Below, piece after piece: positions 2,506 through 59,640 of a stretch of 64,000 nt of DNA. The stretch lies in the NCBI GenBank assembly GCA_903813345.2, contig CAIIXF020000010.1, positions 14,139,181 to 14,203,180 of the forward strand, given 5' to 3'. The stretch is from Owenia fusiformis (taxonomy: Eukaryota > Annelida > Polychaeta > Sabellida > Oweniidae). A program made the position numbers and the translations under genes. The notes under the pieces are model-generated. The model worked only from the letters and a program-made list of their open reading frames with translations. It had not been told where the DNA came from and made no database searches. The first letter of the stretch is position 1. Every line of letters starts with the position of its first letter.

Positions 2506-2506
2506 G

Positions 2507-2829
2507 GCTTGGAGCCGGGGCGCCGAGATCGACGCGGGATCGACCCCCAGCTCCTGCCCCGTGCCATCCCCATCGTCTTCCGTCCTCTTCCTCTTTCGCG
2601 AGGGCTCTTCTGTCCCCAGGTTGAGGTGCCTCCGCCGGTGGAAGGCGAGCTCCTCAACCTGGACAGGGGTATACAACTCGGGGCAGTTGCCCACCCCGCA
2701 GGCAACGGAAGCAACGTGCGTGTTGCTGCGATGCAGCTCCCAGTCTTCCTTGCTTACAAACTGCTCCAGGCAGCGGTAGGGCCTGGTCTCAGGCCATCCC
2801 TTAGGGGACTTCCCCGGCATCTGGCACAC
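2507..2829 (-). pseudogene. Retrotransposon ORF3 copy 1, truncated by virus junction
   Basis: N-terminal 108 or so codons of the recurrent third ORF. The frame opens right after a splice acceptor (TTGTAG at 2830-2835) with V-C-Q-M. A zinc-finger-like block follows: YRCLEQF with H-x4-H, then CGVGNC and HRRRH. Next come a basic patch (KRKR) and the family-wide GVDPASIS motif. At about 2506 it breaks into virus sequence, so the acidic C-terminus is lost. Between this ORF and the primer-binding site at 2859 only about 30 bases remain: gag and pol are deleted and the ORF sits almost directly after the 5' LTR. Confidence 0.75.
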
Positions 2830-2858: not shown

Positions 2859-2876
2859 ATCCCACCACTGCCACCA
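2859..2876 (-). promoter_or_regulatory. tRNA-Leu primer-binding site (left)
   Basis: Plus strand reads ATCCCACCACTGCCACCA, matching a tRNA-Leu 3' end including CCA with one difference from the site at 6686-6703. One base separates it from the LTR start. Its presence shows that the LTR at 2878 also served as 5' LTR for the ORF3 remnant to its left. Confidence 0.7.
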
Positions 2877-2877
2877 A

Positions 2878-5022: not shown

Positions 5023-5043
5023 CTATCCCCTTCAATAGAAAAA

Positions 5044-5061
5044 TTGTTCGTCCTCGAACAA
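5044..5061 (-). other. Polypurine-tract-proximal hairpin, alpha
   Basis: TTGTTCG-tcct-CGAACAA: perfect 7-bp stem and four-base loop, 21 bases from the LTR. The stem sequence differs from other families but pairing is kept. Confidence 0.75.
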
Positions 5062-6685
5062 CATGTCTAAATATATAAGTCCTGTTTGCTTTAGATGTGC
5101 TATGCAGTGCAATGCAATACATTGTATGTAATATGATACACTACAATTTTTCTAAACTGTTCTTCAGAGATAAGGAGCTATAAGCTGATATATGTATGTC
5201 TATAACAATTTGTATATACATGTATACATTGTATGTCCATCAGAAGGTTTATATAGTTCTTGGTTTCATAACCCTTAGTTGAAATGTTCAAAGGTCAGTT
5301 TCATTTGCTGGTGCTGAGTATGGTATATTTGAAGTCTCTGCCGATCTATGTAGTCAGATGTAATATTGTTCTTTAGCTAGCAGAAAATCTCCTTATTGTA
5401 GGCGGTATTGTTCTCTCCATCTTTTCTCATGTAGACAACTGGATTTTAGCATCCCATCTGACTTGTGCCAACTTGGAGGTAGCTCCAACTACAGTATCAC
5501 TGCATGCTGCACAAATGACACTGAGATCAACACGGGATCAGTGCTTTGTAGTATGCATTGAACTAGAGTAGACATCCTTCATACATTCTCATATCGCATT
5601 ATCGCTACCCAGAGGCCTTCCAAGGGTTCCACCATAAAATGGCAAACCTAAAATTTAATAAGATTCTAACCTCTCTATCCTACTTGAAGGGTTTTAAGTA
5701 TTTCTATACGAACCCCCCTTAGGATCTTAAGGCATTAATCTTCTTAGGTTACTTAGATTAAGTCATATATAATAACTTGTCCAACATTAGACTATAGGGT
5801 GATCATTCCACCACCCTCTTTCTAATCTATACAAGTCTAATAATATACAATAATATATAGAATATAAGGAATTAAACAATACATTCTGTAACAAAATATG
5901 AAACTTCTTCAAAACATCAAACTCAACCTGCTTGTTCCAGGTTCTTCACAATTCTCTTTTGATTCATAACTTAATTCCATGAGATATATTTCTCATATAA
6001 AACAAATCTGGTTTCCCTAACAAAAACAACTATTAATCGCCTGTATATTTTACTTCTCTAATCTGAACAAACCAAGTCTTAAGTGGTTATCTCACCTCCC
6101 CCTGATAAAAGGCAGATTCCCTCTGTGAAACTTAATCTGAAAACGGTCTTGCTAAAGCAACAATACATCTATGCCTAACAAGTTTATATCTGTTGGCCTT
6201 GAAATTCAACACTGTTAAGGTTAAATGAGGATAATTCTCTTGGCCATGAGAACCATAGACATTATAACCTTGTGTTAATCCCAATGTAATTCTATACTCC
6301 AGATAGCACCATAATGATCAGTAGACTCAGTTTCAGTGCTCAAATTAAAAAAATAGTTAAATTTCCTTACCTCAGGTTTATCACACACTTCCGGATCAAA
6401 AGTTATGACATTGAGAAGTCTAGTCTCTGTCTATATGTAATCAATGATACTAAACTGTACCTCCCAACCCCAAGGTCTCAAAAGTTAAAGCCTCCTCAGC
6501 CTGTCATGCTGAGGAGACTGGGTAGCAATTCCTCAAGGGCAACATCTGACAAAAATTTAAATCTGACCCTTCATTGAACACCCTTGCAAATTGTGTGCTA
6601 TATAACAGACAAGCACAACTGATCATCAATCAAGTATCAACCAAAATTAATAAAAAAAGGTCCCTTAAAACAAGGTTTTAAGAGC

Positions 6686-6703
6686 ATCCCACCGCTGCCA
6701 CCA
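6686..6703 (-). promoter_or_regulatory. tRNA-Leu primer-binding site (alpha)
   Basis: Plus strand ATCCCACCGCTGCCACCA is an 18-base match to the 3' end of a metazoan tRNA-Leu with CCA. The minus-strand site therefore reads TGGTGGCAGCGGTGGGAT. One spacer base precedes the LTR. Confidence 0.85.
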
Positions 6704-6704
6704 A

Positions 6705-7959
6705 TATAAAATACTAGCCCCGGAGTTATATAATAAGTAGGTAGCTACGACCGGGACTATTAATGAAGCTAGCATTTTATGATTCAATAAATGATCGATG
6801 ATTGTAAAGACAAAGGGCGAATTTTATGTCTAGATATTGAAAGACTAAAACAAACCAAAACTCCAAATATTGATAATAATTCACAGATGCAAATCTTTAA
6901 CTCAAAAGAAGACAATGAACAATTTTACCATTCATCTTATTCATTAATTTATTTTACAAACAAAATATTTCACATACCAAAAGCTTACTATTAAAGTATC
7001 ACTTACAATGAGGAAATCAATTCTAGTTAATATAAGAGCAAACATCAAAAGCAAAATCTGCAGTCAGGTGAATATCATAAATTCCTTAAAAACCTGAAGC
7101 TAAGTTGTTCTTAATAATATGAATTGATTCCAATCTTACTATAAATCATCTTTAAATCTCTTCCTTCATAAGGCTTTTAGATTTCTCATGATTCTTTTAG
7201 TAAAACAAGATAATGAAATAGAAATGGTATAAACTCTCATTAAAAGTAAAAACTGACGCTTACCTAAATAAGTTCAATTCGTTCCTAATTACCTCTTTTA
7301 AAATGACCATCTGTTATTCTGTTCTATTTCAAACCTATCACAGCTTCTGTGCATGTTTGACTTCCAACAGACTATAGAAATAATCAAAGTCTAAAAACAT
7401 GAAACTTCTATTGTACTTTTGACTTCATTTGTCCTCTTATAGAAACTTGAAAGTTCTAAACTTTCCTTTTCCATCTTTAGAACACTGAAAGTCCTTTACA
7501 ATACTTTTCATCTAAATCAAATTGTTGTTCCCATCATTTACCAGCCAAGATGTGCCCTTGATGATCCGAAATTGCTAACCAAAGAGCTCGTACAATCCTC
7601 TCAATTTATACAAGACAATTTTCCATTAAAAAGTGATGTCAGTAACAAAATGATGTAGGTACAATAATGACGCTAATACTATACTTAGCATATGACACAA
7701 TATGACGTACCAAAAATAAAGCAACGTTTCAACTTTTACAAGGCTAAATGAAATGGATACTCTGACATAGTTAGAACAACTGCATCATGTTTTTATACCT
7801 CAAGAGTGTACTTTATGAGGTGAAATTGACATCACTTTGCTCAAATCAGCTGACTGCAGTTTTGACTATCTTACTATTCAATTGATACAATATTATTCTA
7901 GTATGAATATATGATTACTAAGCAATAACTGATTATATTATAATGAGTGGGCCTCTACA
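6705..7959 (-). repeat. Alpha LTR, right (5') copy
   Basis: 1255 bases, TATAAAATACTAG at the left to GGGCCTCTACA at the right. Holds the empty target site (6984-6988) of the transposon found in the left copy. Confidence 0.9.
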
Positions 7960-12380: not shown

Positions 12381-13069
12381 TCAAAGTTCAAAGGAAAAGC
12401 CTAGGGGCTCTGGAGACCCGATGGACCAGGCCTTGTCCTGACCTGATCCATCCCCTTGATCGGCTTCCTTGCTGTCCAGACATTCCTGCACCCAATCCAA
12501 TAGGTCGGAGTCCAACCCCGACCACAGGGGATCCTTCTCACTGGAGTCCCCTGACCGGCTAGTTGATGTAGTTGCAGAGGTTGAGGGTCCAGTAGCAGTT
12601 GTAGAGGTTGAGGGTCCAGTAGCAGTTGTAGAGGTTGAGGGTCCAGTAGCAGTTGTAGAGGTTGAGGGTCCAGTTGTAGTTGTAGAGGTTGAGGGTCCAG
12701 TTGCAGTTGTAGAGGTTGAGGGTCCAGTTGCAGTTGTTGAGATAGTAATGGCCCGCAGCACCCTCTTGGGCCTTTTACTTGGTGGCTCCGCCTCTCTGTT
12801 GGGGGATTACGCATGCTGCCTTAAGCGATGCAGGCGGAGTTGCTCTATCTCATTTGGGCAGAAGCGGGCTTCACAACCCCACACTCCCCACAATACTCTG
12901 TGGCCCGGTGGGCACATGCTATATGTACCTGTAGCTCCTCTTGGGTCGCAAAGGCTCTCCAACAGAAGAATGCCCTATCCCTATTCCATCCGGCTGGAGG
13001 TGGGATCTGTTCTTTGCAGTCCTGGAAGAAAACAAAGACATTTACTGGTGTCCTTGCCCTTCTCTCCAC
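12381..13069 (-). pseudogene. ORF3 of beta element 1, one frameshift
   Basis: Beta version of the third ORF. N-terminal part (13069 to about 12890) has FFCWRAF and H-x4-H. Two extra bases near 12886-12890, relative to the intact copy at 41192-41830, throw the frame off. Downstream the proper frame reopens: basic patch, six copies of a 27-base repeat encoding GPSTSTTAT-like units (12581-12740), then acidic GLDSDLLDWVQECLD and a stop at 12381. There is no intron-like acceptor upstream, unlike gamma. Probably inactive in this copy. Confidence 0.75.
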
Positions 13070-13192
13070 TCCTGGGCAAACTTTTTACCCCTGAGCGGCT
13101 CTAAAGGCACTATACAATGGTGGTTAATATGATCAATAATAATTATAAATATATATCTAAATCATTCCGCCTGACTCTCCTCCAAAGTGGCC

Positions 13193-19369: not shown

Positions 19370-22270
19370 TATAGAATACTAGCTCTGGTCAATGCTAAAT
19401 ATAGAATACTGATCTCGGGAAATGCGAGATTTGATAAACGTGACCGGAAATAGATAATAGAGCTTGTATTCTAAAGATTATAACTAAAATTAAGTAAAGG
19501 GTACAGGAAGTCAGTTTCTCAAGATGAGAGAGTCAGGGTAAAGCTACACACCAGATTTATACGGATTAAATAAATGTGCAACAACAATAATGTGCTAAAA
19601 CAACAACTAGGCCTATCAAGCCTGAAGATACTTACTATAAGATGGTAATGTATATCTATAATTAATTTTATTCGATTAAACTTTATATGAATAAATATGT
19701 AATGTGCATGCAATCAAATGCCTTTCAGTTATCTATGAATAACTGCTCAGATTGATTATTATAATATTTATAATTTAATACAAACAAGAATTCTATAGTC
19801 TATCACGTGTTTCAAATGGATACTTTCTATACTACTGATGTAGGACATACACTATAGTACATGAGGTCAACTTAAACTCAAAATAGTAAGCTTTCTAACT
19901 GTATTGTCTTTTACGCCCTCTATAAATGCCAGAAAGTATTAAATGCCTTGTCACTTCGAATAAAGCTAAAAGCCTAACAGGTCTCGATAATGCCCACAAC
20001 CAGCAAACTTGATTTATTCTAAACCTAAAGTGCGAAAGGATTGTTCCCAACAAAACTCCAAACAATAAGGGTAATTAAACTCTAGGGATCTAAACCTTAT
20101 GTTACTAACAACAATTCCCTGCTCCGCCCCTCAGGTTACATTTCATAAATTCCTTTTTGAACACCCTAAGACCTCCGAATCCAAAACAAATGGTTTCCAG
20201 ATCCTTAAATGACAACTATAACTGTTTTCACCTCGAATTTAGAAACCTGATTCTCATATATTATAGTTCTTATAAAACAATCCCTAAGTGATAATAAAAA
20301 CTCTCAACAAGTACAAAGAGACATGCCTCATAAATTTCACAATGGCAAATATGAGCTGTAAACTAGCCTGACTAAGGAAAACAAATACCCTTTACTAATG
20401 TCGGGCCTACGCACTTATTTTGATATAATGTTCTCGGGTTGTAAACTGCTGATACGATTATCCCGTTAAAGTGATAGCTCAATTACAAATAAACCGCAAC
20501 ACTCAAAAGTTATCGGCTAATTAGACAATTAACTCTCTTTCTTGAACTCTTTCAAAGTAATTACTTGCTTTTTCACTCTAGGGGCTACACGTAAATTGTA
20601 AACAATTATGGATTTTGACAGCGGGATGATTATTTCTCTACCACACCAAGTGATCTCTGACTGAACTAAATAGACAATGGAAATATTCATCCAAAGCAGA
20701 TATAAATAACTATTTAATATTCCGATATTTACGTTCAAAGCTTCCTTATATTTTCTACTATTTCTTCCGAACCTCAAATGTTCGAACTAAACGGTCAACA
20801 GAAAATGAATAAGAAATCGATGACAATCAATCAGCCCTAACTTTCCGATATAAAGTACAAACGAGAGAAATCAATTCAGGTTAATCATTCGATCGCCAAT
20901 CAAATTCCCCGAGTAATCAACCAATTCTAATCATAAACTAATTGTAATTTCTCTCTTTCTATCTCTTAATCAAACCTCTGCCATCCAAATGACCTATGTT
21001 CGAATCTAGATAGACTACAGAAATCCTATTCAAAGATACCAATTAAATTGAATTTCTCTTTTCTATTCCTTCCAAATCTTTACCGTTCAGACGGTCTATT
21101 ATTTGAACTCAAATAGACTATAGAAATCTTATTGCAAGTTATTAATCAAAATATTGAATCCAATTTCTCTTTTCTATTCTTTCCAAACCTTACTGTTCGA
21201 ACTTAATAGACTATAGAAATCTTACTCAAAGATTAATAAATTAAATCTCTCTTCTATTCTTTCCAAACCTTATTGTTTGAACTTAATAGACTATAGAAAT
21301 CTTCTTCAAAGATATTCATTGAATTAAATGTTATTAAATGTTGGCTGATTATGATTTTATATTTCAATTATCTCTTGAAACTATGATCTGGCGATTTAAT
21401 AATCAATTTGTACTTACAAACATTCTCATTGGTGTAGATGACATCTTCTCAGTAATCAGTGTTTGTGTTCCTCAAACGTATATTTTTATATTATAACAAA
21501 CTCGCATGTAGTCAGCTCGATGGAGAACTACGGAAGGCCGGAAAATAATTTGTCGCTAAGATATTTCTCTGTATGCTGGGTTCCGGGCCGGTAGGTGTCA
21601 AAACTGTTACAACAAAGCAGGTACGAAGAGCATTTTATACTAAACGCTCAAAGACCGGTATTTTAAAAGATTCCACCTAGGAATGCATGATATTGCATTT
21701 CTAATAGATATTTGAAAGAAATTCTTGCCAGGATTGCACAAGGTTACATATTTTAGAGGAATTTTTAAAGGTTTTTAGGGTCCCAGTGAATGCCGGGTAA
21801 GCACATTCCTACCAGGAATCCAGGCTTCAAGGCAACATACGGATCCCCTCATTGCCCTGCTGCAACGGAGAAACGGGGAATCCCCGAAATTCCTGTGAGG
21901 TATTTTTCTAAATTCCACTACAATTTCTGCAACCGAAGGCATTCTCAAGGCTTAAACACTGATTCACAAGATATAATTTATGAGGAACTTTACACCACAG
22001 AGCCAGGAACCCACTATCACTATCAGCTGATTACCGGAGTGAAGTTTCATGATCAAGGTCCGCATTCACTAAAGCCAGGCAAAACAACAACAAAACAATT
22101 CACTACCCAGAAAAGTTCCCATTAACTCCCAATGCACTTAGATTATTCCACAAAATACAACAAGCAATTTATACTTTCCAAAACCACAGACCATTAAGGG
22201 ATTTTAAAACCATACTGCATTTTCCCTATTTTGCCCTTTGTGCTTTAATAGGTAGAGTCGGTCTCTACAC
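19370..22270 (-). repeat. Beta LTR, right (5') copy
   Basis: 2901 bases, TATAGAATACTAG to GGTCTCTACA; empty site of the 8301-9375 insertion near 19662. Followed by target duplication CAAT at 22271-22274. Confidence 0.92.
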
Positions 22271-22274
22271 AATA

Positions 22275-24013
22275 ACCCGGAAGTGAATTATAGAAATATA
22301 GGCAGCGTAAGCCAGAACAAAGGGAAATTGGACTAGTACTTCATAAGAAATTACTAATGAGGTAAGTGATGAATCGGTGTCAGGAATATGATAGAATGAT
22401 AGGTCTAGTGTAAAAAGGGTGAAGTTACAAGGTGAAATATAAACCTACACAAATACAACACAGCAAGCTAAAAAGAATAAAGGATTAGGTACTTTAAATA
22501 TCACCACACCAACTACCAACTAATAGTAAATCACACAAGAAATATATTCATTCAATAAAGTCTATTCTATTATACTTGCGTTTTATGTCACAACTGAAAT
22601 ATATATGTACAATGCGAATAAATAGTATTTAAATTATATAGATTATAATTTACATAAATGCTTAATGTCTTTAAATCTATTAGAATGAAATTAAACTCAA
22701 TAACGCTGAAATCTGCAGTCTGATAAAATGTCTTCAAAATTATGACCGGGATACTACTTCAAATCAGAAGAGAATTGCCAACAACGATCTTGTAATAAAG
22801 TTGAATTTTATGCCCTCTATAAATTCAGTCGGGAACTAATAGCATGAAAAGTGACGTCAGATATGCGTTAAAAGCCCGAACGAGATTTTGATAAATGGGA
22901 AAGAGCTGTGAACTTTCAACCGTCAAAGACTAAGGGTGTTATTTTAAACACCAGAGGTGCGAACTCAATGGAATGTGCCCGTAAGGACTTCTTTCAATTA
23001 CAATCAAGTTCAAGTTAAAAGCTGTCTAGGATACAATAATCCACAAAGATGCTCAAGTTTTAATGAATGAATCTAGACTTCAAAAGTGACGTATGTGATC
23101 ACGTGACTAAGTCGTCTGCTTTCCCCAAAGTTATGATTTAATTTGACCAATAATTCCCTTAATTGATAACGTGAATCTCTATTCTGTACTATCTTGAACC
23201 TTCCCAGCATATGGGCTTATCGGGACAAACTCCCAATCTTGTTCAACTGTTACAGACTGCAGATAACACCGTTAGAAAATATGTGCGGGAAAAATGAAAG
23301 TTTTGAAATGTTTTCTCAAAGTTCAATTATCGATCAATGTTACTGTCTTAAATCTCTTCACTCCCTAATGGAATGCTATAGATTTCTATACAGTACTGAA
23401 AATTAACTTACCCAAACGCCGATGCCTCTACGTGTGTCAAACGCGACGTCCATGTGACAAATATTCTCTGAAGCTTTAAGCCTATCGTCAAAGCAAATCT
23501 GAGCTAGCCGAAAGTTAGTCTTAGCGAATGCGTTTAGCAGATGATAGATCTCGATCTCAGCTGTGCAGGAATTGTTACATTGTATCCGCAAAATGCACTT
23601 GTTTATATAGCAACAAATGGACATACGCAATTTCGGGGACGACGTAGGCAGAAATATATGTAATGTTACTAAAAATGGGATATTACCAAAATTTTTAGGG
23701 CTACGTAGGGTAGCAAGAAGGGCAAAAAGAGCAGCTTATTGGACAAGAATTATGAGGAAGGGACTAAAAAATGATGTCACTTTGAAAAGTGACGCGTAGT
23801 TGAGACTGCAAATTCAGCGTTTTACAATGATAAATAGGTTTTTTCTATAAATATACTGCCTCTGATACGATGATTCTGGCATACGTATTGCAATAATATA
23901 ATGATCATGTTAAAGGGACATGATGTGGTTAAATGCTGATTATAGATATTAAAGGAGCACACACTGGTTAAATATGATATTATGAATAGCTATATACAGG
24001 GTGGGTCTCTACA
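22275..24013 (-). repeat. Gamma LTR (3' LTR of element 2), split by beta
   Basis: Continues from 7991-8008 after the nested beta element, ending AGGGTGGGTCTCTACA. Carries TGACGTCA at 22852-22859, TGACGT at 23087-23092 and the inverted pair GTCACTTTGAAAAGTGAC at 23776-23793, all repeated in other gamma LTRs. It matches 34047-35589 far better than element 2's own 5' LTR. Confidence 0.85.
22852..22859. promoter_or_regulatory. CRE-like palindrome in gamma LTR
   Basis: TGACGTCA, the CREB/ATF consensus. Kept at the equivalent place in gamma LTRs at 32978, 34455, about 49728 and 57181. Confidence 0.6.
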
Positions 24014-24134: not shown

Positions 24135-24731
24135 TTAATTACAAAGGTCCAACAGTGCATCAATATCATGATCGTCTAACGACACGTCAGGCCCTGTCAG
24201 GGCGGCAATGTCCTCATCAGCAATGCTGGACCACCACGGATCAACATCCTCCGCCACGAGTCCTCGAGCAGCGGGCGCGTCATCTACTGAAGGGCAGAGG
24301 GATGTTGAAGGTTTGGGCGATGAGGTGACCAATGGCTCCTCCCTTGCGCTCTCCATTTCCTCCTTCCGGGGACGCACGACGGCTTGGAGCTGGGGCGTCG
24401 AGATCGACGCGGGATCGACCCCCAGCTCCTGCCCCGTGCCATCCCCCCTTCCAAGCTCGCGTCCTCTCCTCCTTTTCTGGGGCGGCTCCCCGGCAGCAGC
24501 CTGCTGACCCCCACCGGAGGAGGTGGAATGGCGCTTCCGGTGGAGGGTCAGCCTCTCCACTTCTGCTGGCGTGAAGCGAGCGTCACATTCACCTACTCCG
24601 CACGGCACCGACTTCACGTGACAACATTCCCTATGCGTCTCCCATTCTTCAGAACTCACATATTGTTTAAGACAGCGGTAAGGCCGCCCAGCCGGCCATC
24701 CCTTGGGTGGCTCACCGCCCATCTGGCACAC
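24135..24731 (-). CDS. ORF3, gamma element 2: zinc-finger-like protein with acidic C-terminus
   Basis: Best-preserved gamma copy, 198 codons counted from the acceptor; first ATG is codon 4 (VCQ-MGGEPPKGW). Residues 18-40: YRCLKQY with H-x4-H. Residues about 43-67: CGVGEC and HRKRH, a C-x4-C ... H-x3-H zinc-finger-like pair. Residues 80-95: basic KRRRGREL, a likely nuclear signal. Then GVDPASIS, a variable Ser/Pro linker, and a strongly acidic end (DIAALTGPDVSLDDHDIDALL) resembling acidic activation domains. It lies between pol and the polypurine tract, where retroviruses carry env or accessory genes; there is no signal peptide or membrane segment, so it is not an envelope. I recognise no named family. 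A self-activating transcription factor is the inferred role. Confidence 0.8.
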   Translation of the reverse strand: MCQMGGEPPKGWPAGRPYRCLKQYVSSEEWETHRECCHVKSVPCGVGECDARFTPAEVERLTLHRKRHSTSSGGGQQAAAGEPPQKRRRGRELGRGDGTGQELGVDPASISTPQLQAVVRPRKEEMESAREEPLVTSSPKPSTSLCPSVDDAPAARGLVAEDVDPWWSSIADEDIAALTGPDVSLDDHDIDALLDLCN

Positions 24732-25080
24732 CTAAAATAAAATAAAACTCTTACCCTCTTTACCCTACTAGAAAGGTTTTAAGTATTTTTATACAAACCT
24801 CCCCTAGGGTCTTAAGGTACTAGTTTTCTTGATATTTAATTAATACATATATACTTGACCATATTGAATTAGAATGAACATCTTCTCATCCCTTTTTCAA
24901 TCTATTCAAGTCTTTACAGTAAAAGTTAATCCTCTACGATGAAAAAGGGCTAAAAGAAAGTTTATAAGAATGGGTACAAGCCATAAGCACAAGTCAAATC
25001 ACAATTAAGATAATCGTTAAAGTAATATAGGATAAATGTACATGATAAGAATATTAAGGCACTTGACTCGACTTATGAAA
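24732..25080 (-). other. Conserved pre-ORF3 block with splice acceptor
   Basis: On the element strand the block ends ...GGGTAAGAGTTTTATTTTATTTTAG and ORF3 begins at the next base. Pyrimidine/T-rich tract plus AG is a good 3' splice site. The preceding stretch (GAGGTTCGTATAAAAATACT and neighbours) is shared with alpha (about 5650-5880), gamma copies (36303-36660, 43858-44215) and delta (48296-48530), far better than noncoding DNA of these ages would require. Probably an intron 3' end of a spliced message. Confidence 0.65.
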
Positions 25081-32374: not shown

Positions 32375-34046
32375 TATAAAATACTGTCCAAAAACCCGGA
32401 AGTGAATTGTAAAAATAGGTAGTGTAAGCCAGAACAAAGAGAGATTGGACTAGTACTTCATAAGAAATTACTTATAAGGTGAGTGATGAATAGGTTTCAG
32501 GAATATGATAGAATGATAGGTCTAGTGTCAAAAGGGTGAAGTTACAGGGTGAAAATATAAACAAACCTACACCAAATACAACACAGCAAGCTAAAAAGAA
32601 TAAGGGATTAGATACTTAAAATAAACCCACACCAACTACCAACTAATAGTAAATCACACAAGAAATATATTCATACAATTAAGTCTATTCTATTATACTT
32701 GCGTTTTATGTCGCAACTGAAAGATATATGTACAATGTGAATAAATACTATTCAGATTATTTAGATTATAGTTTTACATAAATGTTAAATATCTTTAAAT
32801 CTATTGGAAATGAAATTAATCTCAATAACGCTGAAATCTGCAGTCTGTTAAAAATGTCTTTAAAATTATGTCCGGGATACTACTTCAAACCAGAACAGAA
32901 TTTCCACTAACAATTTCACAGTAGGATCGTATTTTATGCCCTCTATAAATTCAGTTAGGAACCAAAAGCATGAAAAGTGACGTCAGAATGCCTTAAAAAC
33001 CCGAACAAGATTTTGATTGATGTAAAAGAGTTGTGAACTTTCAACTGCTGTAACCTAGGGTTGTTATTCTAAACACCAGAGGTGTTAATTCAATGGAATG
33101 TGCCCGTTAAGTCTAATTTCAAGTTCAAGTTCAAGTTAAAAGCCGTCTACGATACTACAGCACACCGAAATGGTCAAGTTTTATGAATGAATTTGGATTT
33201 CAAAAGTGACGTAGGTGATCACGTGACTAAGTCGTCTGCTTCTCCCAAAGTTATAATTTGATCAATAATTCCCTTTGATTGATAACGTGAATCTCTATTC
33301 TGTACTATCTTGAACCTTCCCAGCATATGGGCTTATTGAGACAAACTCCAAATCTTGTTCAACTTTTACAGACTGCAGATAACACCGTTAGAAAATATGT
33401 GCGGGAAAAATGAAAGTTTCAAAATGTTTCCTCAAAGTTCAATTACGATTCAATTACTGTCTTAAATCTCTCCACTTCTCTAATAAGTGCTATAGATCTC
33501 TATACAGTACTAAGATTTACTTACCCAGACGCCAACCCCTCTTTTGTTATCAAAAATCACACTCATCTGTAAGTTTCCGTCTTGTCAGGATCAGGATAGT
33601 TAGCAGGTATATTTGTCGGATCTCGAGTTCAGCTGTGCGGGAATCGTTACATTGTATCCGCAAAATACACTTGTTTATATAGTAACAAATGGACATACGT
33701 AATCTTGGGGACGACGTAGGGAGAAATATATGTAATGTTACTAAAAATGGGACATTACCAAGATTTTTAGGGCTACGTAGGGTAGTACGAGGGGCAAAAA
33801 GAGCAGCTTATTGGACAAGAATTATGAGGTAGGGACTAGAAAATGATGTCACTTTGGAAAGTGACGCAAAGTTGAGACTGCAAATTCAGCGTTTTATAAT
33901 GATAAATGGATTTCTTCTAAAAATATACTGCCTCTGATACGATGATTCTGGCATACGTATTGCAATAATATAATGATCAAGTTAAAGGGGCACACACTGA
34001 TTAAATATGATGTTATAAATAGCTATATACAGGGTGGGTCTCTACA
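32375..34046 (-). repeat. Gamma-2 LTR (5' side of element 2)
   Basis: 1672 bases, TATAAAATACTGTCC to GGGTCTCTACA. It is a subfamily closer to 49118-56588 than to element 2's other LTR, so element 2 is a mosaic. CRE-like TGACGTCA at 32978-32985, TGACGT at 33207, inverted TGAC pair at 33848-33865. Confidence 0.82.
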
Positions 34047-35589
34047 AACCTACACAAATACAACACAGCAAGCTAACAAGAATAAGGGATTAGGTACTTT
34101 AAATATCACCACACCAACTACCAACTAATAGTAAATCACACAAGAAATATATTCATTCAATAAAGTCTATTCTATTATACTTGCGTTTTATGTCACAACT
34201 GAAATACATATGTACAATGCGAATAAATAGTATTTAAATTATATAGACTATAATTTACATAAATGCTAATGTCTTTAAATCTATTAGAATGGAATTAAAC
34301 TCAATAACGCTGAAATCTGCAGTCTGATAAATGTCTTCAAAATTATGACCGGGATACTACTTCAAATCAGAACAGAATTGCCAACAACGATCTTGTAATA
34401 AAGTTGAATTTTATGCCCTCTATAAATTCAGTCGGGAACTAATAGCATGAAAAGTGACGTCAGCTATGCGTTAAAAGCCCGAACGAGATTTTGATAAATG
34501 GGAAAGAGCTGTGAACTTTCAACCGTCAAAGACTAAGGATGTTATTTTAAACACCAGAGGTGCAAACTCAATGGAATGTGCCCGTAAGGACTTCTTTCAA
34601 TTACAATCAAATTCAAGTTCAAGTTAAAAGCTGTCTAGGATACAATAATCCACAAAGATGCTCAAGTTTTAATGAATGAATCTAGACTTCAAAAGTGACG
34701 TATGTGATCACGTGACTAAGTCGTCTGCTTTCCCCAAAGTTATGATTTAATTTGACCAATAATTCCCTTAATTGATAACGTGAATCTCTATTCTGTACTA
34801 TCTTGAACCTTCCCAGCATATGGGCTTATCGGGACAAACTCCCAATCTTGTTCAACTGTTACAGACTGCAGATAACACCTTTAGAAAATATGTGCGGGAA
34901 AAATGAAAGTTTTGAAATGTTTTCTCAAAGTTCAATTATCGATCAATATTACTGTCTTAAATCTCTTCACTCCCTAATGGAATGCTATAGATTTCTATAC
35001 AGTACTGAAAATTAACTTACCCAAACGCCAACACCCCGTTTTTCGTCGAAGATTACGTTCATAGCCCAACTGGAATCTTGAGACCGTGTTCACTGAGGAT
35101 ACTGTGCTGTAGCGAGTATTTTCCGAATCTTAGGTTCAGCGGTGCAGGAATTGTTACATTGTATCCGCGAAAGACACTTGTTTATATAGCAACAGATGGA
35201 CATACACAATCTTGGAGACGACGTAGGGAAAAATATATGTAATGTTGCTAAAAATGGGATATTACCAAGGTTTTTAGAGCTATGTAGGGTAGTAAAAAGG
35301 CAGAAAGAGCAGCTTATTGGACAGGAATTATGAGGTAGGGACTGAGAAAATGATGTCACTTTGAAAAGTGACGCAAAGTTGAGACTGCAAATTCAGCGCT
35401 TTACAATGATAAATAGGTTTTCTCTATAAATATACTAGCTCTGATACAATGATTCTGGCATATGTATTGCAATAATGTGATCATGTTAAAGGGACATGAT
35501 ATGGTTAAATACTGATTATAGATATTAAAGGGACACACACTGGATAAATACGATATAATAAATAGCTATATACAGGGTGGGTCTCTACA
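34047..35589 (-). repeat. Truncated gamma LTR
   Basis: Starts abruptly inside the LTR (AACCTACACAAATAC, equivalent to about 22442) directly against the end of the previous LTR and runs to TCTCTACA. Nearly identical to 22442-24013. Confidence 0.85.
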
Positions 35590-35713: not shown

Positions 35714-36302
35714 CTATGCACTGTTCAAAAAGTCCAGCCCCTCCAAGTCTACATCCGGCCCTTCCAGGTATTCTCCAACCGCTCTGCTGTTCATCCCCAG
35801 CAGAGGATCCCCGCTCTCCGCCAGCAATCCTCGGACCAGAGGGGAAGTTCCGGCACGTCCTCTAAATCCCGCAGGGGATGCACAGCGGCTTGGAGCTGAG
35901 GCGCCGAGATCGACGCGGGATCGACCCCCAGCTCCTGGCCCGTGCCATCCCCCTCGTCCTCTGTCCTCTCCTTCTCCACCCGGGGATGCACGGCGGCTTG
36001 GAGCCGGGGCGCCGAGATCGACGCGGGATCGACCCCCAGCTCCTGGCCCGTGCCATCCCCCTCGTCCTCAGCCCTCTTCCTCTTTCGGAGGGCTCTTCCG
36101 TCCCCAGGTTGAGGTGCCTCCGCCGGTGGAAGGCGAGCCCCTCAACCTGGGCAGGGGTGAACATCCGTGGGCCCACCCCACAGGCTATAGTGGAATCATG
36201 GGCGTTCACCCGGTGGAGCTGCCAGTCCCCCTGGCTCACGAACTGAGCAAGGCAGCGATAAGGCCGCCCGGGCACCCATCCTCTGGGTGGGTCAGCCGAC
36301 AT
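35714..36302 (-). pseudogene. ORF3 copy with internal duplication and frameshifts
   Basis: Opens at the acceptor (CTTTTAG then V-C-Q-M). Zinc-finger-like block YRCLAQF and HRRRH is present. Frame is lost after GTEEPSE. The GVDPASIS region is duplicated (about 35880-35985 and 35993-36075). The original frame reappears and ends in another acidic tail (DVDLEGLDFLNS) with stop at 35714-35716. Confidence 0.72.
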
Positions 36303-36668
36303 CTGGCAGACCTAAAAGAAAATAAAACTCTTACCTTCTCACCCTACTAGAAAGGTTTTTAGTATTTTTATACGAACCTCCCCTAGGATCTCAAGGTACT
36401 AGTTTTCTTTGATATTCAATTAATACATAAGTACTCGACAATATTGAACTAGAATGAACATCCTCTCATTCTCTTTCAATCTATTCAAGTCTCTTTAGTA
36501 AAAGGTTACAGTTCTTTATTTGGAAGTTCAAAAAAGAAAGTTATAAAAATGGGTATAAGCTACAAGCACAAGCTAGGACACATTGAATTACTTTGAAAGT
36601 AATATAGAAAAATGCACACAATAGGGATATTAAGACACTTGACTCGACTTATGAAATCTGAAGTGAGA

Positions 36669-41191: not shown

Positions 41192-41830
41192 CTAGGGGCT
41201 CTGGAGACCCGATGGACCAGGCCTTGTCCTGACCTGATCCATCCCCTTGATCGGCTTCCTTGCTGTCCAGCTTTCCTGCACCCAATCCAATAGGTCGGAG
41301 TCCAACCCCGACCACAGGGGATCCTTCTCACTGGAGTCCCCTGACCGGCTAGTTGATGTAGTTGCAGAGGTTGAGGGTCCAGTAGCAGTTGTAGAGGTTG
41401 AGGGTCCAATTGCAGTTGTAGAGGTTGAGGGTCCAGTTGCAGTTGTAGAGGTTGAGGGTCCAGTTGCAGTTGTAGAGGTTGAGGGTCCAGTTGCAGTTGT
41501 TGAGATAGTAATGGCACGCAGCACCCTCTTGGGCCTTTTACTTGGTGGCTCCGCCTCTCTGTTGGGGGATAACGCATTCTGCCTTAAGCGATGCAGGCGG
41601 AGTTTCTCTATCTCATTTGGGCAGTAGCGGGCTTCACAACCCCACACTCCACAATACTCTGTGGCCCGGTGGGCACATGCTATATGTACCTGTAGTTCCT
41701 CTTGGGTCGCAAATGCTCTCCAACAGAAGAATGCCCTATCCCTATTCCATCCGGCTGGAGGTGGGATCTGTTCTTTGCAGTCCTGGAAGAAAACAAAGAC
41801 ATTTACTGGCGTCCCTGCCCTTCTCTCCAC
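41192..41830 (-). CDS. ORF3, beta type, nearly intact
   Basis: 212 codons from MERRAGTPVNV. Cys/His-rich region at residues about 33-80: FFCWRAFATQEELQVHIACAH, then YCGVWGCEARYC and LHRLRQ. Basic PSKRPKR. Five 9-residue GPSTSTTAT-like repeats (one fewer than at 12581-12740). Acidic SGLDSDLLDWVQ. A one-base deletion near 41272, relative to element 1, replaces the last 35 or so residues with an unrelated tail. No transmembrane or signal segment. Shares layout with gamma ORF3 although sequence identity is low. Confidence 0.75.
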   Translation of the reverse strand: MERRAGTPVNVFVFFQDCKEQIPPPAGWNRDRAFFCWRAFATQEELQVHIACAHRATEYCGVWGCEARYCPNEIEKLRLHRLRQNALSPNREAEPPSKRPKRVLRAITISTTATGPSTSTTATGPSTSTTATGPSTSTTAIGPSTSTTATGPSTSATTSTSRSGDSSEKDPLWSGLDSDLLDWVQESWTARKPIKGMDQVRTRPGPSGLQSP

Positions 41831-41953
41831 TCCTGGGCAAACTTTTTACCCCTGAGCGGCTCTAAAGGCACTATACAATGGTGGTTAATATGATCAATAA
41901 TAATTATAAATATATATCTAAATCATTCCACCTGACTCTCCTCCAAAGTGGCC

Positions 41954-42467: not shown

Positions 42468-43139
42468 AATTATCGATCAATATTACTGTCTTAAATCTCT
42501 TCACTCCCTAATGGAATGCTATAGATTTCTATACAGTACTGAAAATTAACTTACCCAAATGCCGATGCCTCTACGCGTGTCGAACGCGACGTCCATGTGA
42601 CAAATATTCTCTGAAGCTTTTAGCCTATCGTCAAAGCAAATCTGAGCTAGCCGAAAGTTAGTCTTAGCGAATGCGTTTAGCAGATGATAGATCTCGATCT
42701 CAGCTGTGCAAAGACACTTGTTTATATAGCAACAGATGGACATACGCAATCTTGGAGACGACGTAGGTAAAAATATATGTAATGTTGCTAAAAATGGGAT
42801 ATTACCAAGGTTTTTAGAGGTTTTTTAGAGCTACGTAGGGTAGTAAAAAGGCAGAAAGAGCAGCTTATTGGACAAGAATTATGAGGTAGGGACTGAAAAA
42901 TGATGTCACTTTGAAAAGTGACGCAAAGTTGAGACTGCAAATTCAGCGCTTTACAATGATAAATAGGTTTTCTCTATAAAAATACTAGCTCTGATACGAT
43001 GATTCTGACATACGTATTGCAATAATGTGATCATGTTAAAGGGACATGATGTGGTTAAATGCTGATTATAGATATTAAAGGAGCACACACTGGTTAAATA
43101 TGATATTATGAATAGCTATATACAGGGTGGGTCTCTACA
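42468..43139 (-). repeat. Truncated gamma LTR
   Basis: Begins inside the LTR (ATTATCGATCAATATT, equivalent to 34937) and runs to TCTCTACA at 43139, with two internal deletions relative to 22275-24013. Confidence 0.82.
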
Positions 43140-43260: not shown

Positions 43261-43857
43261 TTAATTACAAAGGTCAAACAGTGCATCAATATCATGATCG
43301 TCTAACGACATGTCAGGCCCCGTCAGGGCGGGAATGTCCTCATCAGCAATGCTGGACCACCACGGATCAACATCCTCCGCCACGAGTCCTCGAGCAGCGG
43401 GCGCGTCATCTACTGAAGGGCAGAGGGATGTTGAAGGTTTGGCCGATGAGGTGACCAATGTCTCCTCCCTTGCGCTCTCCATTTCCTCCTTCCGGGGACG
43501 CACGGCGGCTTGGAGCTGGGGCGTTGAGATCGACGCGGGATCGACCCCCAGCTCCTGCCCCGTGCCATCCCCCCTTCAAAGCTCGCGTCCTCTCCTCCTT
43601 TTCTGGGGCGGCTCCCCGGCAGCAGCCTGCTGACCCCCACCGGAGGAGGTGGAATGGCGCTTCCGGTGGAGGGTCAGCCTCTCCACTTCTGCTGGCGTGA
43701 AGCGAGCGTCACATTCACCTACTTCGCACGGCACCGACTTCACGTGACAACATTCCCTATGCGTCTCCCATTCTTCAGAACTCACATATTGTTTAAGACA
43801 GCGGTAAGGCCGCCCAGCCGGCCATCCTTTGGGTGGCTCACCGCCCATCTGGCACAC
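43261..43857 (-). pseudogene. ORF3, gamma element 4, one nonsense codon
   Basis: Almost identical to 24135-24731. Acceptor, zinc-finger-like block, basic KRRRGREL, then a GGA-to-TGA change gives a stop at 43576. Beyond it the frame is open again to the acidic DIDALFDL end. Confidence 0.8.
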
Positions 43858-44218
43858 TTAAAATAAAATAAAACTCTTACCCTCTTTACCCTACTAGAAA
43901 GGTTTTAAGTATTTTTATACGAACCTCCCCTAGGGTCTTAAGGTACTAGTTTTCTTGATATTTAATTAATACATATATACTTGACCATATTGAATTAGAA
44001 TGAACATCTTCTCATCCCTTTTTCAATCTATTCAAGTCTTTACAGTAAAAGTTAATCCTCTACGATGAAAAAGGGCTAAAAGAAAGTTTATAAGAATGGG
44101 TATAAGCCATAAGCACAAGTCAAATCACAATTAAGATAATCGTTAAAGTAATATAGGATAAATGTACATGATAAGAATATTAAGGCACTTGACTCGACTT
44201 ATGAAATCTGAAGTGAAA

Positions 44219-48095: not shown

Positions 48096-48295
48096 ACTAC
48101 CCCCCTTAAAGAATTTCCTCCCACAGCCTGCTATCCCGCAGGCCACGGACAGACGATGGGCGCAGTCTTGATGTATTGACAAAGCATCCTGGGATTCAAA
48201 TCCTTCCCAACAAAAGAATTTCTTATTTGGGTCGTCTTTAGCCTTCTTCCCCTTCCACCATATAGGCTTAGGGGTCTCAACCTCACATACCTGGA
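48096..48295 (-). pseudogene. ORF3 of delta element, fused to polypurine tract
   Basis: Element strand: acceptor TTTTATTCCAG, then an open frame starting V-C-E-V with no ATG, running through FFCWEGFESQDALSIH, DCAH and CGIAGCG to a stop inside the polypurine tract. The Cys/His pattern is intermediate between beta (FFCW) and gamma. The basic and acidic parts are deleted, apparently down to the tract. Lack of an ATG right after the acceptor suggests the start codon was on an upstream exon. Confidence 0.7.
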
Positions 48296-48536
48296 ATAAA
48301 ACAAGATTCTTACCTGCCTATCTTACGTGAAGGATTTTTAGTATTTTTATACGAACCCCCCTAAGAACTGCAGGTACTAACCTTCTAAGATTATTTACAT
48401 TCAATTATACATGGTAACTTGTCTAATTGGACACTACGGTGATCTTTTCATCATCCTCTTCCCAATCTATACAAGTCTTATACAATGATCAATATATGGT
48501 CTATATACATATTCTGACCCTCTCTAATCATGAGTC

Positions 48537-52479: not shown

Positions 52480-52544
52480 TATTAAAAACATTATAACAAC
52501 TTAAAGTCCTGATTGAGATAGATTTATATATATCTGTTAACAGT

Positions 52545-52985
52545 CCAATATATATATGCATTGTCTAGTTGTTGTGAATAAATCCATATTATGACGATTG
52601 TCCAATATACACACGTTGTCTTGTTGTTGTGAATAAATCCATATTATGACGATTGACCAATATATACACGTTGTCTTGTTGTTGTGAATAAATCCATACA
52701 ATGACGATTGTCCAATATATACACTTTGTCTTGTTGTTAATAAATCCATACGATGATGATTGTCCAATATATACACGTTGTCTTGTTGTGAATAAATCCA
52801 TACAATGACGATTGTCCAATATATACACGTTGTCTTGTTGTTGTGAATAAATCCATACGATGACGATTGTCCAATATATACACGTTGTCTTGTTGTTAAT
52901 AAATCCATACGATGACGACTGTCCAATATATACACGTTGTCTTGTTGTTGTGAATAAATCCATAGGATGACGATTGTCCAATGTC
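52545..52985. repeat. Minisatellite, about 53-60-bp units
   Basis: Eight or so copies of a unit with TAAATCCATAYRATGACGATTGTCCAA (shown here split: TAAATCCATA, ATGACGATTG, TCCAATATA) and TTGTCTTGTTG. The long ORFs across it arise from the repeat. Confidence 0.9.
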
Positions 52986-53044
52986 AAAATATGTTGTTCA
53001 TTTAAAATTACGAAGTAGTGTCTTTCAGGGCTAAACTATCAAGT

Positions 53045-53817: not shown

Positions 53818-53934
53818 TATATTATAAGTCTTCCTACTCTGAAGCAGCTTTTGGCTAATTTGGCACTGATCCATTTTTTAACTGAAATAATTAAAAAAAA
53901 AATTTTAATATTCCTAGAAATATATCTATATATA

Positions 53935-55555: not shown

Positions 55556-56588
55556 TTTTAATTGATGTAAAAGAGTTGTGAACTTTCAACTGCTGTAACC
55601 CAGGGTTGTTATTCTAAACACCAGAGGTGTTAATTCAATGGAATGTGCCCGTTAAGTCTAATTTCAAGTTCAGGTTCAAGTTAAAAGCCATCTACGATAC
55701 TACAGCTCACCGAAATGGTCAAGTTTTATGAATGAATTTGGATTTCAAAAGTGACGTATGTGATCACGTGACTAAATCGTCTGCTTTTCCCAAAGTTATG
55801 ATTTAATTTGATCAATAATTCCCTTTGATTGATAACGTGAATCTCTATTCTGTACTATCTTGAACCTTCCCAGCATATGGGCTTATTGAGACAAACTCCC
55901 AATCTTGTTCAACTTTTACAGACTGCAGATAACACCGTTAGAAAATATGTGCGGGAAAAATGAAAGTTTTGAAATGTTTCCTCAAAGTTCAATTATCGTT
56001 GAATTAACTGTCTTCAAATCTCTTCACTCCCTAATGGAATGCTTTAGATCTCTATACAGTACTAAGATTTACTTACCCATACGCCAATACCCCTCTTCGA
56101 GTCAAATGTAACGTCCATGGAACGGTAAATCTCGTAGCTCTGTGTATGTGTATTAGTCAGGAAGACTAGCGAATGTGTTTAGCAGATGACAGGATCCGAA
56201 GCTCAGCTGTGCAGGAATTGTTACATTGTATCCGAAAAAGACACTTGTTTATATAGTAACAAAATGGCCATACGCAATCTTGGGGACGACGTAGGGAGTT
56301 AAAAGGGCGGAGAGAGCAACCAATTGGTCAGAATTTATGAGGTAGGGACCGAAAAAGTGATATCACTTCGGAAAGTGATGTAAAAATGAGACTGCAATTT
56401 CAGCGTTTTACAATGATAAATAGGTTTTTTCTATAAATATACTGGCTCTGATACGATGGTCCAGGTCCAGGCCTCTTAAAATAGTATGATCATGTTAAAG
56501 GGACATGATATGGTTAAATACTGATTATAGATATTAAAGGGGCACACACTGATTTAATATGAGAATATGAATAGAGTGGGTCTCTACA
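55556..56588 (-). repeat. Gamma-2 LTR, part 2
   Basis: Resumes the LTR interrupted at 49757, matching about 33010-34046, ending GAGTGGGTCTCTACA. No internal region follows; another LTR starts at once. Confidence 0.85.
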
Positions 56589-58328
56589 TCAATCTAGGCT
56601 GGAAGTGAATTATAAAGTAGGTAGAGTGAGCCAGGACAAAAGAAATTGGACTAGGTTATCATAAACACGAGAAATCGACTAATAAGGTGAGTGATGAATA
56701 GGTTTCTGAGGGATGATAAAGTGATGGGTTCAATGTAAAAGGGTGAAGTTACGGGGTGAAAATATAAACTAACCTATTCAATACAACACAGCAAGCTAAA
56801 AGTATAAGGAGTTAGGTACTATAAATATCACCACACCAACTACCAACTAATAGTAAATCACATAAGAATTATATTAATACAATAAAGTCTACTCTATTTT
56901 ATACTTGTTTTTTGTGTAGCAACTGGAATATATATGAACAATACGAATAGATATGATTCAGGTTAAATATATCAATATTTACATAAAAGTTAAATTTCTT
57001 TAAATCTATTATAAGGAAATAATTTTCAATAACGCTGAAATCTGCAGTCTGTCGAAATGCCTCTAAAATTATGTTCGGGATACTACTTCAAAACAGAACA
57101 GAATTTCCCACGACAATCTTACAGTACGATTGATTTTTATGCCCTCTATAAGTTTAATCGGAAACGAAAAGCATGAAAAGTGACGTCAGTATGCCTTGAA
57201 ATCCCGAACAAGGCTTTGATAAATGGAAAAGGACTGTGAACTCCCAACTTGTCGTAACCTTGGGTGTTATTCTAAACACTAGAGGTGTGAACTCAATGGA
57301 ATGTGCCCGTTAAGACTATCTTCAATTAAATTCTAGTTCAAGATCAAGTTGAAAGCCGTATATGAAACTATAATACACTAAAATGATCAAGTTTTATGAA
57401 TGAATCAAAAGTTGTATTTCAAAAGTGACGTAGGTGATCTTGGACTCCCCAAATCGTCTGCTTTCCCTAAAGTTATGATTTAATTTGATCAAGAATTCCC
57501 TTTGATTGATAACGTGAATCTCTATTCTGTACTATCTTGAACCTTCTCAGCATATGGGCTTACCAGGACAAACTCTCAATCTTGTTCAACTGTTACAGAC
57601 AGCAGATAACACCGTTACAAAATATGTGCGGGAAAAATGAAAGTTTCAGATTGTTTCTTCAAAGTTCAATTATGATTCAATTACTGTCTTAAATCTCTCC
57701 ACTTCTCTAATAAGTGCTTTAGATTTCTATACAGTACTTAAAGTTAACTTACCCATACACCGATACCTCTTCTCGAATCGAAAATCACGTCCATCAAGTA
57801 AGAATTGGCACTCAGTACGAATTGTATAGATCTTGTCCAAGCTAATAGCAGGTGTGTCTATGGGATCTCTTGTTCAGCCGTGCGAGGAGCTGTTACATTG
57901 TATCCGAAAAAGACACTTGTTTATATAGCAACAAAATGGACATACGCAATCTTAAAGGCTACGTAGGGAGAATTATATGTAATGTTACTAAAAATGGATG
58001 ATTACCAGGGTTTTTATAGCTACGTAGGGTAGTTAAAAGGGCGGAGAGAGCAGCCAATTGGACAGAATTTATGAGGTAGGGACCGAAAAGTGACATCACT
58101 TTGAAAAGTGACTCAAAGTCGAGACTGCAAATTCAGCGCTTTACAATGATAAATAGGGTTTTTCTATAAATATACTGGCTCTGATACGATGATTCTGGCA
58201 TACGTATTGCAATAATGTGATCATGTTAAAGGGACATGATATGGTTAAATACTGATTATAGATATTAAAGGAGCACACATTGGATAAATATGATATTATA
58301 AATAGCTTATACAGGGTGGGTCTCTACA
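56589..58328 (-). repeat. Gamma-3 LTR
   Basis: From GGAAGTGAATTATAAA to TCTCTACA, lacking the first dozen bases. TGACGTCA at 57181-57188 and TGACGT at 57426-57431 are retained although the rest has diverged visibly. Confidence 0.82.
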
Positions 58329-58537: not shown

Positions 58538-59078
58538 TTACATAATGTCTAAAAGCTGGTCGATATCCACATCGTCCATGTTCATGTCTGGCAACAGGGC
58601 GGATCCCCCGAGGAGTCTCTCTACTTCACTGGCCCGTCTATGCTCTCTGCCCGTAGTCCTCTGGATTGCGGCGAGTTCAGTTGTTGGGTCGCTGCTTCTG
58701 GTTCTCCCCGGGGAGGCACGGCAGCTGTGAGCTGGGGCGTCGAGATCGATGCGGGATCGACCCCCAGCTCCTGCTCCGTGCCCTCCCCCTTCCGACCTTG
58801 TTTCCTCTCTGCGGCTTCCGGGGCGGCTCCTCGGCAACCGCTTGCTGACCCTCATCGGAGGAGGTGGAGTGAAGCTTCCGATGGAGGGTCAGCTGCTCCA
58901 CTTCAGCGGGCGGGAAGCGAGCATCGCACTCGCCCACCCCACATGGCACGGACGCCACGTGGCAACATCTGTGGTGTATCTCCCACTCCTCTCTGCTCAC
59001 GTATTGTTTGAAACAACGGAATGGCCGCCCAGCTGGCCATCCTTGGGGGGGGGGGGGGGTCACTGCTCATCTGGCACA
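58538..59078 (-). pseudogene. ORF3, gamma-3, frameshifted
   Basis: Acceptor (TTTTAG) then V-C-Q-M. Zinc-finger-like block FRCFKQY, H-x4-H, CGVGEC, HRKLH. The frame changes near 58770-58790, so the GVDPASIS motif and tail are read in another frame, ending in MNMDDVDIDQLLDIM with stop at 58538. A G-run (59045-59058) near the N-terminus may also disrupt it. It is the only gene left in this LTR-ORF3-LTR-fragment derivative. Confidence 0.75.
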
Positions 59079-59211
59079 CCTAAAATAAAATAAAACTCTT
59101 ACCCTCTTTACCCTACTAGAAAGGTTTTAAGTATTTTTATACGAACCTCCCCTAGGGTCTTAAGGTGCTAGTTTTCTTGATATTTAATTAATACATATAT
59201 ACTTAACCATA

Positions 59212-59379
59212 TTCTATAAATATACTGGCTCTGATACGATGATTCTGGCATACGTATTGCAATAATGTGATCATGTTAAAGGGACATGATATGGTTAAAT
59301 ACTGATTATAGATATTAAAGGAGCACACACTGGATAAATATGATATTATAAATAGCTATATACAGGGTGGGTCTCTACA
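59212..59379 (-). repeat. Gamma LTR terminal fragment
   Basis: 168 bases nearly identical to 58163-58328, ending TCTCTACA at 59379, directly joined to the pre-ORF3 block. Beyond it host sequence begins. Confidence 0.85.
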
Positions 59380-59640
59380 ATAGCATACACAACTCAATTT
59401 ATAATAATATGGTAAGTGTGGTAAAAAGTGATGCAATGACTAGTCTTTTATTGTTTGCATTAATAATCAAGCAAACACAAAATATAAAATACCATCCTAT
59501 AACCTGGAAGTGAATTATAGAAATATAGGTAGTAACACTCTATTCTTTAGAATGGGAATTATTTTTTGGAATGGGAAAAGTAAAATATAGATGAATCATA
59601 AACATGAGTGAGATGGCTGAGATTTTATTTTTAATTTAAC
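59380..59640. other. Host-like sequence with a short gamma LTR start fragment
   Basis: AT-rich, no ORF. 59479-59525 matches the first bases of a gamma LTR (TATAAAATACCATCC ... GGAAGTGAATTATAG). Confidence 0.5.

Follow-up and report, generated by a model that had tools for sequence, protein, structure and literature searches.

The stretch of DNA analysed here (the window), 64,000 nucleotides of the genome of the annelid Owenia fusiformis, is a nest of LTR elements in minus-strand orientation. In a Pfam scan of the 64-kb window, protease, reverse transcriptase (RT), RNase H and integrase all scored above cut-off, gag and CCHC below it. The element at 24 kb (gamma1) carries protease, RVT_1, RNase H, H2C2 and rve in this order, all above cut-off, and has LTRs and a polypurine tract (PPT), which places it in Ty3/Gypsy (Metaviridae) by the domain order PR-RT-RNaseH-INT together with LTRs and PPT. 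Its pol is broken, with protease, RT and RNase H-integrase each in a separate frame. The fuller copies contain a further gene, ORF3, between integrase and the PPT/3' LTR. Copies are referred to as alpha1 and alpha2 (13 kb and 42 kb), beta (48 kb), gamma1, gamma2, gamma3 and gamma5 (24, 36, 43 and 58-59 kb), c2 (a fragment at 2.5-2.8 kb) and f5640 (a decayed fourth family).

The original prediction listed eight copies or remnants of ORF3 in one common slot. Related sequence is present at all eight places, always on the minus strand and in the same slot in the fuller copies, but only the gamma1 frame at 24135..24731 is fully open; it is intact, runs for 198 aa to its stop and starts at a predicted splice acceptor. 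The alpha2 copy (41192..41782) is open, its last part being shifted relative to alpha1 and to the Owenia protein P0006. Frameshifts are found in alpha1 (12381..13021), gamma2 (35714..36311) and gamma5 (58538..59078), gamma3 (43261..43857) has an in-frame stop, beta (48096..48290) is truncated at the PPT, and the c2 fragment (2506..2829) ends inside hairpin B (described below), where it joins CRESS-like DNA. Below 5640 there is also a ninth remnant, in a decayed state. The exons, hairpins, splice site and TATA box discussed in the following are all on the minus strand.

Several other features of the nest deserve mention. The LTRs flanking gamma1 (22270-24013 and 32375-34046) are ~16% different and of unlike exon-1 types, so the element may be recombinant. 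At 2859-7959, two LTR copies with pieces >99% identical surround ~1.7 kb in which the ORF list has no minus-strand frame of 90 aa; a further internal region, which bears ORF3, then follows, and one of the LTR copies holds ~880 bp of inserted sequence. The stretch 983-2913 is a CRESS-DNA-virus-like endogenous viral element, with a replication gene on the minus strand (Pfam Viral_Rep, E 1.3e-15) and an Arg-rich start on the plus strand, which we take to be capsid-like. Its junction with ORF3 at 2505/2506 falls at the 3' end of the core of hairpin B, beside a GGTATTATT stretch that presumably resembles a CRESS nick site. A minus-strand frame at 53045-53821 combines a Cys/His stretch with several QVLQEQIIQSNNVPQVKQVQDSRS-like repeat units and gave no Pfam match above cut-off. 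Short tandem arrays occupy 52543-53048 (units of ~52-55 nt) and 59577-60026 (units of ~50 nt).

Just before the conserved protein lies a potential acceptor, which reads tttgttttcttccag/GACTGCAAAG in alpha, cttgttttattccag/GTATGTGAGG in beta and ttttattttattttag/GTGTGCCAG in gamma (slashes mark splice junctions); in gamma1 the polypyrimidine tract and 3' splice site span 24732..24751. All three acceptors are in phase 0 and are followed by cysteine as the second codon, with AA replacing AG in gamma3. The gamma frame meets a stop codon directly at the acceptor. The alpha and beta frames extend some codons further upstream, yet no ATG is found ahead of the Cys/His block. The frame listed in the original prediction is probably exon 2 alone.

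In a donor scan, two gamma LTRs showed TGG/GTAAGT following a short frame that opens with ATG, and a search with the peptide so encoded extended this to six LTR copies, all six combining an ATG, an open frame and GTAAGT. The pattern of this likely gamma exon 1, M.V.FD..RG.G.W/GTAAGT, lies inside the LTR downstream of a TATA box, at 23412..23453 (MDVAFDTRRGIGVW/GTAAGT), 42555..42596 (MDVAFDTRRGIGIW), 57753..57794 (MDVIFDSRRGIGVW), 56077..56118 (MDVTFDSKRGIGVW), 33525..33566 (MSVIFDNKRGVGVW) and 35021..35062 (MNVIFDEKRGVGVW). Three patterns identified 13 LTR starts in the window, six of which lead to a gamma exon 1; the peptide is absent from the other seven (three alpha, one beta, a fragment at 59379 and two of the 5022/7959 family). 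The six copies differ far more at synonymous sites (pS 0.85) than at non-synonymous sites (pN 0.17). The pN/pS is 0.20 in frame, a value that none of 5000 column shuffles reached, against 1.3 and 1.6 in the two alternative frames; a cruder count by codon position was not significant. Together with the dN/dS of the finger region given below, this frame test argues against a random open frame. The TATA box at 23596..23610 (CTATATAAACAAGTG), 157 nt ahead of the exon-1 ATG, is identical in all six exon-bearing LTRs, and the stretch just before exon 1 is poorly alignable. In the U3 of these six LTRs there is also a dyad, GTCACTTTTCAAAGTGAC or a close variant (23776-23793 and five others), one copy of which has paired changes at both ends; it is a candidate dimer-binding site.

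For alpha, the LTR exon 1 is suggestive only. The candidate at 21418..21444 encodes MSSTPMRMF/GTAAGT and has a counterpart, MATAPVRLF/GTAAGT, in a diverged LTR near 63.3 kb (inside 63200-63460). This pair differs at 8 of 27 nt and 5 of 9 residues, so it does not by itself show purifying selection. Up to DCKEQ the sequence of the Owenia protein P0008 is unrelated, which would fit a join at the alpha acceptor. Against the splice model, the partial Owenia protein P0006 runs on across this acceptor. Further, gamma1 has a weaker in-phase donor soon after the gag ATG (GAG/GTAGGA, last exon base 31381), so that this copy may use a gag-start exon. Overall, this Ty3/Gypsy-type lineage apparently carries a spliced third gene of two exons, as judged from its sequence.

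The layout proposed earlier for the protein was recovered in the aligned ORF3 sequences, in which a Cys/His block is followed by an Arg/Lys-rich basic patch, a variable linker and an acidic Leu-rich C-terminus. Across ten aligned sequences H33, H38 and C44 are invariant, and C20, C49 and H64 are retained in at least 90%. The two finger motifs are atypical; alpha has Gln in place of the last His in finger 2, and finger 1 has its first Cys far upstream, leaving 17-24 residues between the presumed cysteines. The Pfam zf-C2H2 family matched one of nine members below cut-off (best E 0.52), and unrelated Pfam families scored as well or better (E 0.05-0.08). When an ORF3 profile was compared with solved structures to E 10, only three matches were returned (E 0.64-1.2), all of them C2H2 fingers and none significant alone. 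One of these, GLI1 (E 1.2), was aligned over both ORF3 motifs. ORF3 shares C-x4-C and a long C-to-H spacing in finger 2 with the first two fingers of GLI, but departs from GLI-type fingers in the wide cysteine spacing of finger 1 and in scoring below every curated threshold. Structure prediction, proposed earlier as a check, yielded AlphaFold models with mean pLDDT of 55 and 61; fold searches with these low-confidence models gave no meaningful match and were uninformative.

The claim of an activator-like architecture holds in part. By the composition rule that PMC10550315 gives for acidic activation domains (equation 1), three of nine ORF3 C-termini qualify (gamma1, gamma3 and the Owenia protein P0005) versus none of seven control proteins. 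However, two of these three are near-identical copies, the other six C-termini, including all three alpha ones, fail, and the finger matches are sub-threshold; under a looser rule that omits the third term, one gag control passes as well. The motif D-[IV]-D-x-L-L-[DN] recurs in gamma1, gamma5, P0002 and P0005 and is missing from gamma2 and alpha. With its C2H2-like zinc module, basic patch and acidic Leu-rich tail, the predicted product looks like a nuclear regulator.

Selection on the protein, which had been suggested by the preserved layout, is borne out by substitution rates. The finger region has a dN of 0.13 and a dS of 1.32 between gamma1 and gamma5 (ratio about 0.10), with similar values for gamma3-gamma5, and a dN of 0.22 and a dS of 0.91 between gamma2 and c2 (ratio 0.24). 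In other distant pairs synonymous sites are near or past saturation (pN 0.31-0.38), and the near-identical gamma1-gamma3 pair, with two changes in the finger region and four in the C-terminus (ratios 0.30 and 0.89), carries little information. Where unsaturated, the dN/dS of 0.10-0.24 indicates that the finger region is under purifying selection, in line with the in-frame ratio of exon 1, and the value near 1 that was to count against the prediction is not seen there. The C-terminus is loosely constrained: leaving gamma1-gamma3 aside, the five remaining comparisons between gamma1, 2, 3 and 5 give a pN/pS of 0.58-0.67.

Relatives of ORF3 were found only in Owenia. A protein search with the 24135-24731 translation matched five proteins, including the window's own and none from outside Owenia; an alpha query added three more, again from Owenia, and an alignment search to E 10 gave no match beyond these eight. 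As the protein searches require shared five-residue words and limit length, and the alpha and alignment searches scored the 7993 and 7997 best-sharing candidates, respectively, the absence of relatives elsewhere is weak evidence. No description of these Owenia elements was found in a full-text literature search covering sources other than bioRxiv and most subscription journals.

Besides the protein, two RNA hairpins are associated with the gene. When 3195 100-nt segments of the minus strand were folded and corrected for GC content, five of the seven strongest outliers were sites of hairpin A or hairpin B. Hairpin A, a predicted intronic stem-loop, lies at 24749..24823 in gamma1, where its folding z is -3.45 (0 of 200 shuffles as good), and a covariance model search places it at 36328..36402 in gamma2 (z -3.2), 43875..43949 in gamma3, 59097..59171 in gamma5, 48307..48380 in beta (z -2.2) and 5664..5738 in f5640 (z -2.6). 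The RNAalifold consensus of these six copies has 23 pairs, four of them with compensatory double changes. Imposed on the six-copy alignment, the gamma1 structure pairs 91.4% of cells (reached by 3 of 500 shuffles) with three doubly changed pairs (15 of 500), but pair types are not enriched over shuffles (421 of 500), and a control slid by -3 has a covariation score of 0.115, slightly above the 0.110 of the structure itself.

Hairpin A was also recovered in alpha. Run on either strand of the whole window with E up to 10, the six-copy model, which was built without alpha, returned its own six sites and exactly two more, at 13052..13113 in alpha1 (E 0.046) and 41813..41874 in alpha2 (E 0.063), both just upstream of the acceptors. 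Once the alpha sites are added, pairing extends to 96.9% of cells, double changes affect 7 of 23 pairs and the covariation score is 0.248; none of 500 shuffles attained any of these values. Slid controls pair 37-61%, and the number of pair types is again not raised (209 of 500 shuffles). It should be noted that the 11 cells counted overstate the number of independent events, because fitting to the model produced this alignment and alpha1 is near-identical to alpha2. At the six sites measured, the model stops 16-30 nt short of the AG. By position and covariation, hairpin A is thus a companion of the predicted acceptor in alpha, beta and gamma, and its place in the intron upstream of the acceptor means that it would be present in unspliced RNA only. 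A TATA-like GTATAAAAATAC upstream of ORF3 turns out to be the apical stem of hairpin A and lends little support to an internal promoter.

Hairpin B, with a stem of 30 pairs, lies inside ORF3 itself, at 24368..24446 in gamma1, 43494..43572 in gamma3, 58710..58788 in gamma5 and, as two tandem copies 108 nt apart, at 35982..36060 (first) and 35874..35952 (second) in gamma2; the block is doubled in P0005 too. A model search of the window matched only ORF3 copies, with weaker matches on the opposite strand at the same sites. In alpha, the corresponding position in the linker (12381-12806 and 41192-41845) holds a run of a 9-residue repeat (TTATGPSTS). The gamma stretch with the highest conservation, GDGTGQELGVDPASIS.P.LQA, which the original prediction overlooked, corresponds to hairpin B and is kept as nucleic acid. 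Among gamma1, 2 and 5, 69-74 of the 79 nt of the hairpin are identical, compared with 145 of 251, 217 of 284 and 146 of 251 in the exon 2 sequence ahead of it. Synonymous change is correspondingly rare, affecting ~1 of 21 sites versus 38 of 51 in the finger region between gamma1 and the first gamma2 copy (Fisher p = 2.9e-8, rounded counts) and 2 of 21 versus 27 of 44 between gamma1 and gamma5 (p = 1.2e-4, rounded counts); pS is 0.05-0.22 over ten hairpin pairs. Conservation at the gamma intron end, which includes hairpin A, equals or exceeds that of hairpin B (from 87 of 94 up to 93 of 95).

Over the five copies, 97.3% of the cells of hairpin B pair, against at most 47.3% in slid controls; two pairs are doubly changed (each reached by 18 of 500 shuffles) and 20 never vary. 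The folding energies of single copies are modestly below those of shuffles (z -1.2 to -2.4), so the case for this hairpin rests on conservation and pairing. Gene conversion may account for the conservation, but in all four pairs compared the preceding part of exon 2 shows less similarity than the hairpin itself, and the few changes within the hairpin include two compensatory ones.

The nearest precedent found is CERV of Cer1, a Gypsy/Ty3 element of C. elegans. As described in the passages on CERV in PMC10309623, this protein is made by splicing, takes its C-terminal half from the same third-gene slot, has a basic NLS and an essential Cys-rich loop, uses a conserved acceptor TTTCAG or TTGCAG, and is required for export of the genomic RNA. 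CERV is, however, large and has five exons, four of them in the polyprotein frame (PMC10309623), whereas Owenia ORF3 apparently has two exons, the first inside the LTR, about 200 residues and paired C2H2-like motifs. No sequence match between the two was found, and RNA export is demonstrated for CERV while the Owenia protein is known here as sequence. Among viruses, the genes for foamy virus Tas/Bel1 and HTLV Tax adjoin the 3' LTR, and the products have a basic patch and an acidic tail. The likeness of ORF3 to these proteins, in position by the 3' LTR, basic patch and acidic tail, is one of description. In bovine foamy virus, Tas is reported to bind, and to activate, the LTR as well as an internal promoter (PMC4929722). 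In plant LTR retrotransposons, spliced cases of additional ORFs (aORFs) exist and those in sense orientation are called env-like (PMC7264820); the main text of that paper uses the word "zinc" 0 times, and its account of aORFs does not describe an LTR-coded exon.

The gene structure, the selection on the protein and the RNA structures are supported by conservation, while splicing in cells, nuclear entry, the binding target, activation and the function of the hairpins are what we infer. The best explanation, which we put forward tentatively and at somewhat less than an even chance, is a two-exon regulator that acts on its own element, its tail stimulating transcription from the LTR. Transcription would start near the TATA box of the LTR, and the spliced product would combine a paired C2H2-like zinc module, a basic patch serving as NLS or nucleic-acid-binding site, a flexible linker and the acidic tail. 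This protein would enter the nucleus, be recruited to the element and stimulate the LTR. Hairpin A most probably limits splicing to part of the transcripts, which would yield genomic RNA as well as regulator mRNA; alternatively, it may be the site read by the protein.

Activation is ranked first because of the acidic tail and the zinc module. Two atypical fingers are, however, few for sequence-specific DNA binding, and the conserved RNA hairpins suit a role at the RNA level at least as well as an activator. Such a role, to which the splice structure points too, is absent from the original prediction. Export of RNA is ranked second, on the precedent of CERV and the intronic hairpin, and is a possibility we would put below activation. 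Here the spliced protein, like Rev or CERV, would bind unspliced element RNA, perhaps at hairpin A or B, and export the intron-containing genomic RNA. Cer1 makes a spliced third protein from the same slot that is needed for this very step (PMC10309623, passages on CERV), the Arg/Lys-rich patch of ORF3 would be suitable, and hairpin A, common to alpha, beta and gamma, would mark unspliced RNA only. On the other hand, the location of hairpin A 16-30 nt from the acceptor also fits plain control of splicing, and no CERV-like protein was among the matches of our protein searches, limited in reach as they were, to E 1e-3, 1 and 10. A strict export-signal pattern, taken from the account of CERV in PMC10309623 with its last position completed from recall, occurs in none of nine ORF3 sequences and in two of seven controls; a loose pattern occurs in the last 45 residues of four of nine and two of seven, respectively.

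A role facing chromatin, in which the fingers and the acidic tail recruit host chromatin factors against silencing or to steer integration and the protein is not a promoter-specific activator, seems unlikely. The combination of zinc module, basic patch and acidic tail would suit a chromatin adaptor no less than an activator, and the first two fingers of GLI contribute little to DNA contact, but the conserved RNA structures would be left unexplained. The hairpins could instead be the functional part, in splicing control, packaging or as a small-RNA precursor, with ORF3 minor or structural, for example as a second nucleocapsid-like factor. Hairpin B does constrain nucleotides beyond the protein's need; yet selection acts at the protein level in the finger region and in exon 1, which is far from the hairpins, and makes this very unlikely. 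An envelope-like gene, for which the shared slot with env would speak, is scarcely credible: as the original prediction held, there is no membrane segment, the maximum 19-residue hydropathy being 0.39-0.91 in five ORF3 proteins and below 1 in two exon-1 peptides as well. Beyond the favoured activator, one may imagine an independently evolved, complete circuit resembling that of complex retroviruses, with an LTR-coded exon 1, a spliced zinc-finger-like regulator and, next to the acceptor of the gene, a covarying intronic RNA response element, in which the protein measures and controls both the spliced/unspliced balance and LTR output; in this full form we regard it as doubtful.

The third gene is real, and its anatomy differs from that first proposed. 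Regulatory genes made by splicing are usually taken as a mark of complex retroviruses. Among Gypsy elements CERV of Cer1 is a known exception, to which the annelid elements would add a second case. With a start codon in the LTR and RNA structures shared across families, this case would suggest that such circuits have originated repeatedly. The Owenia elements offer a compact system in which the protein, the promoter and the RNA elements can be tested separately.
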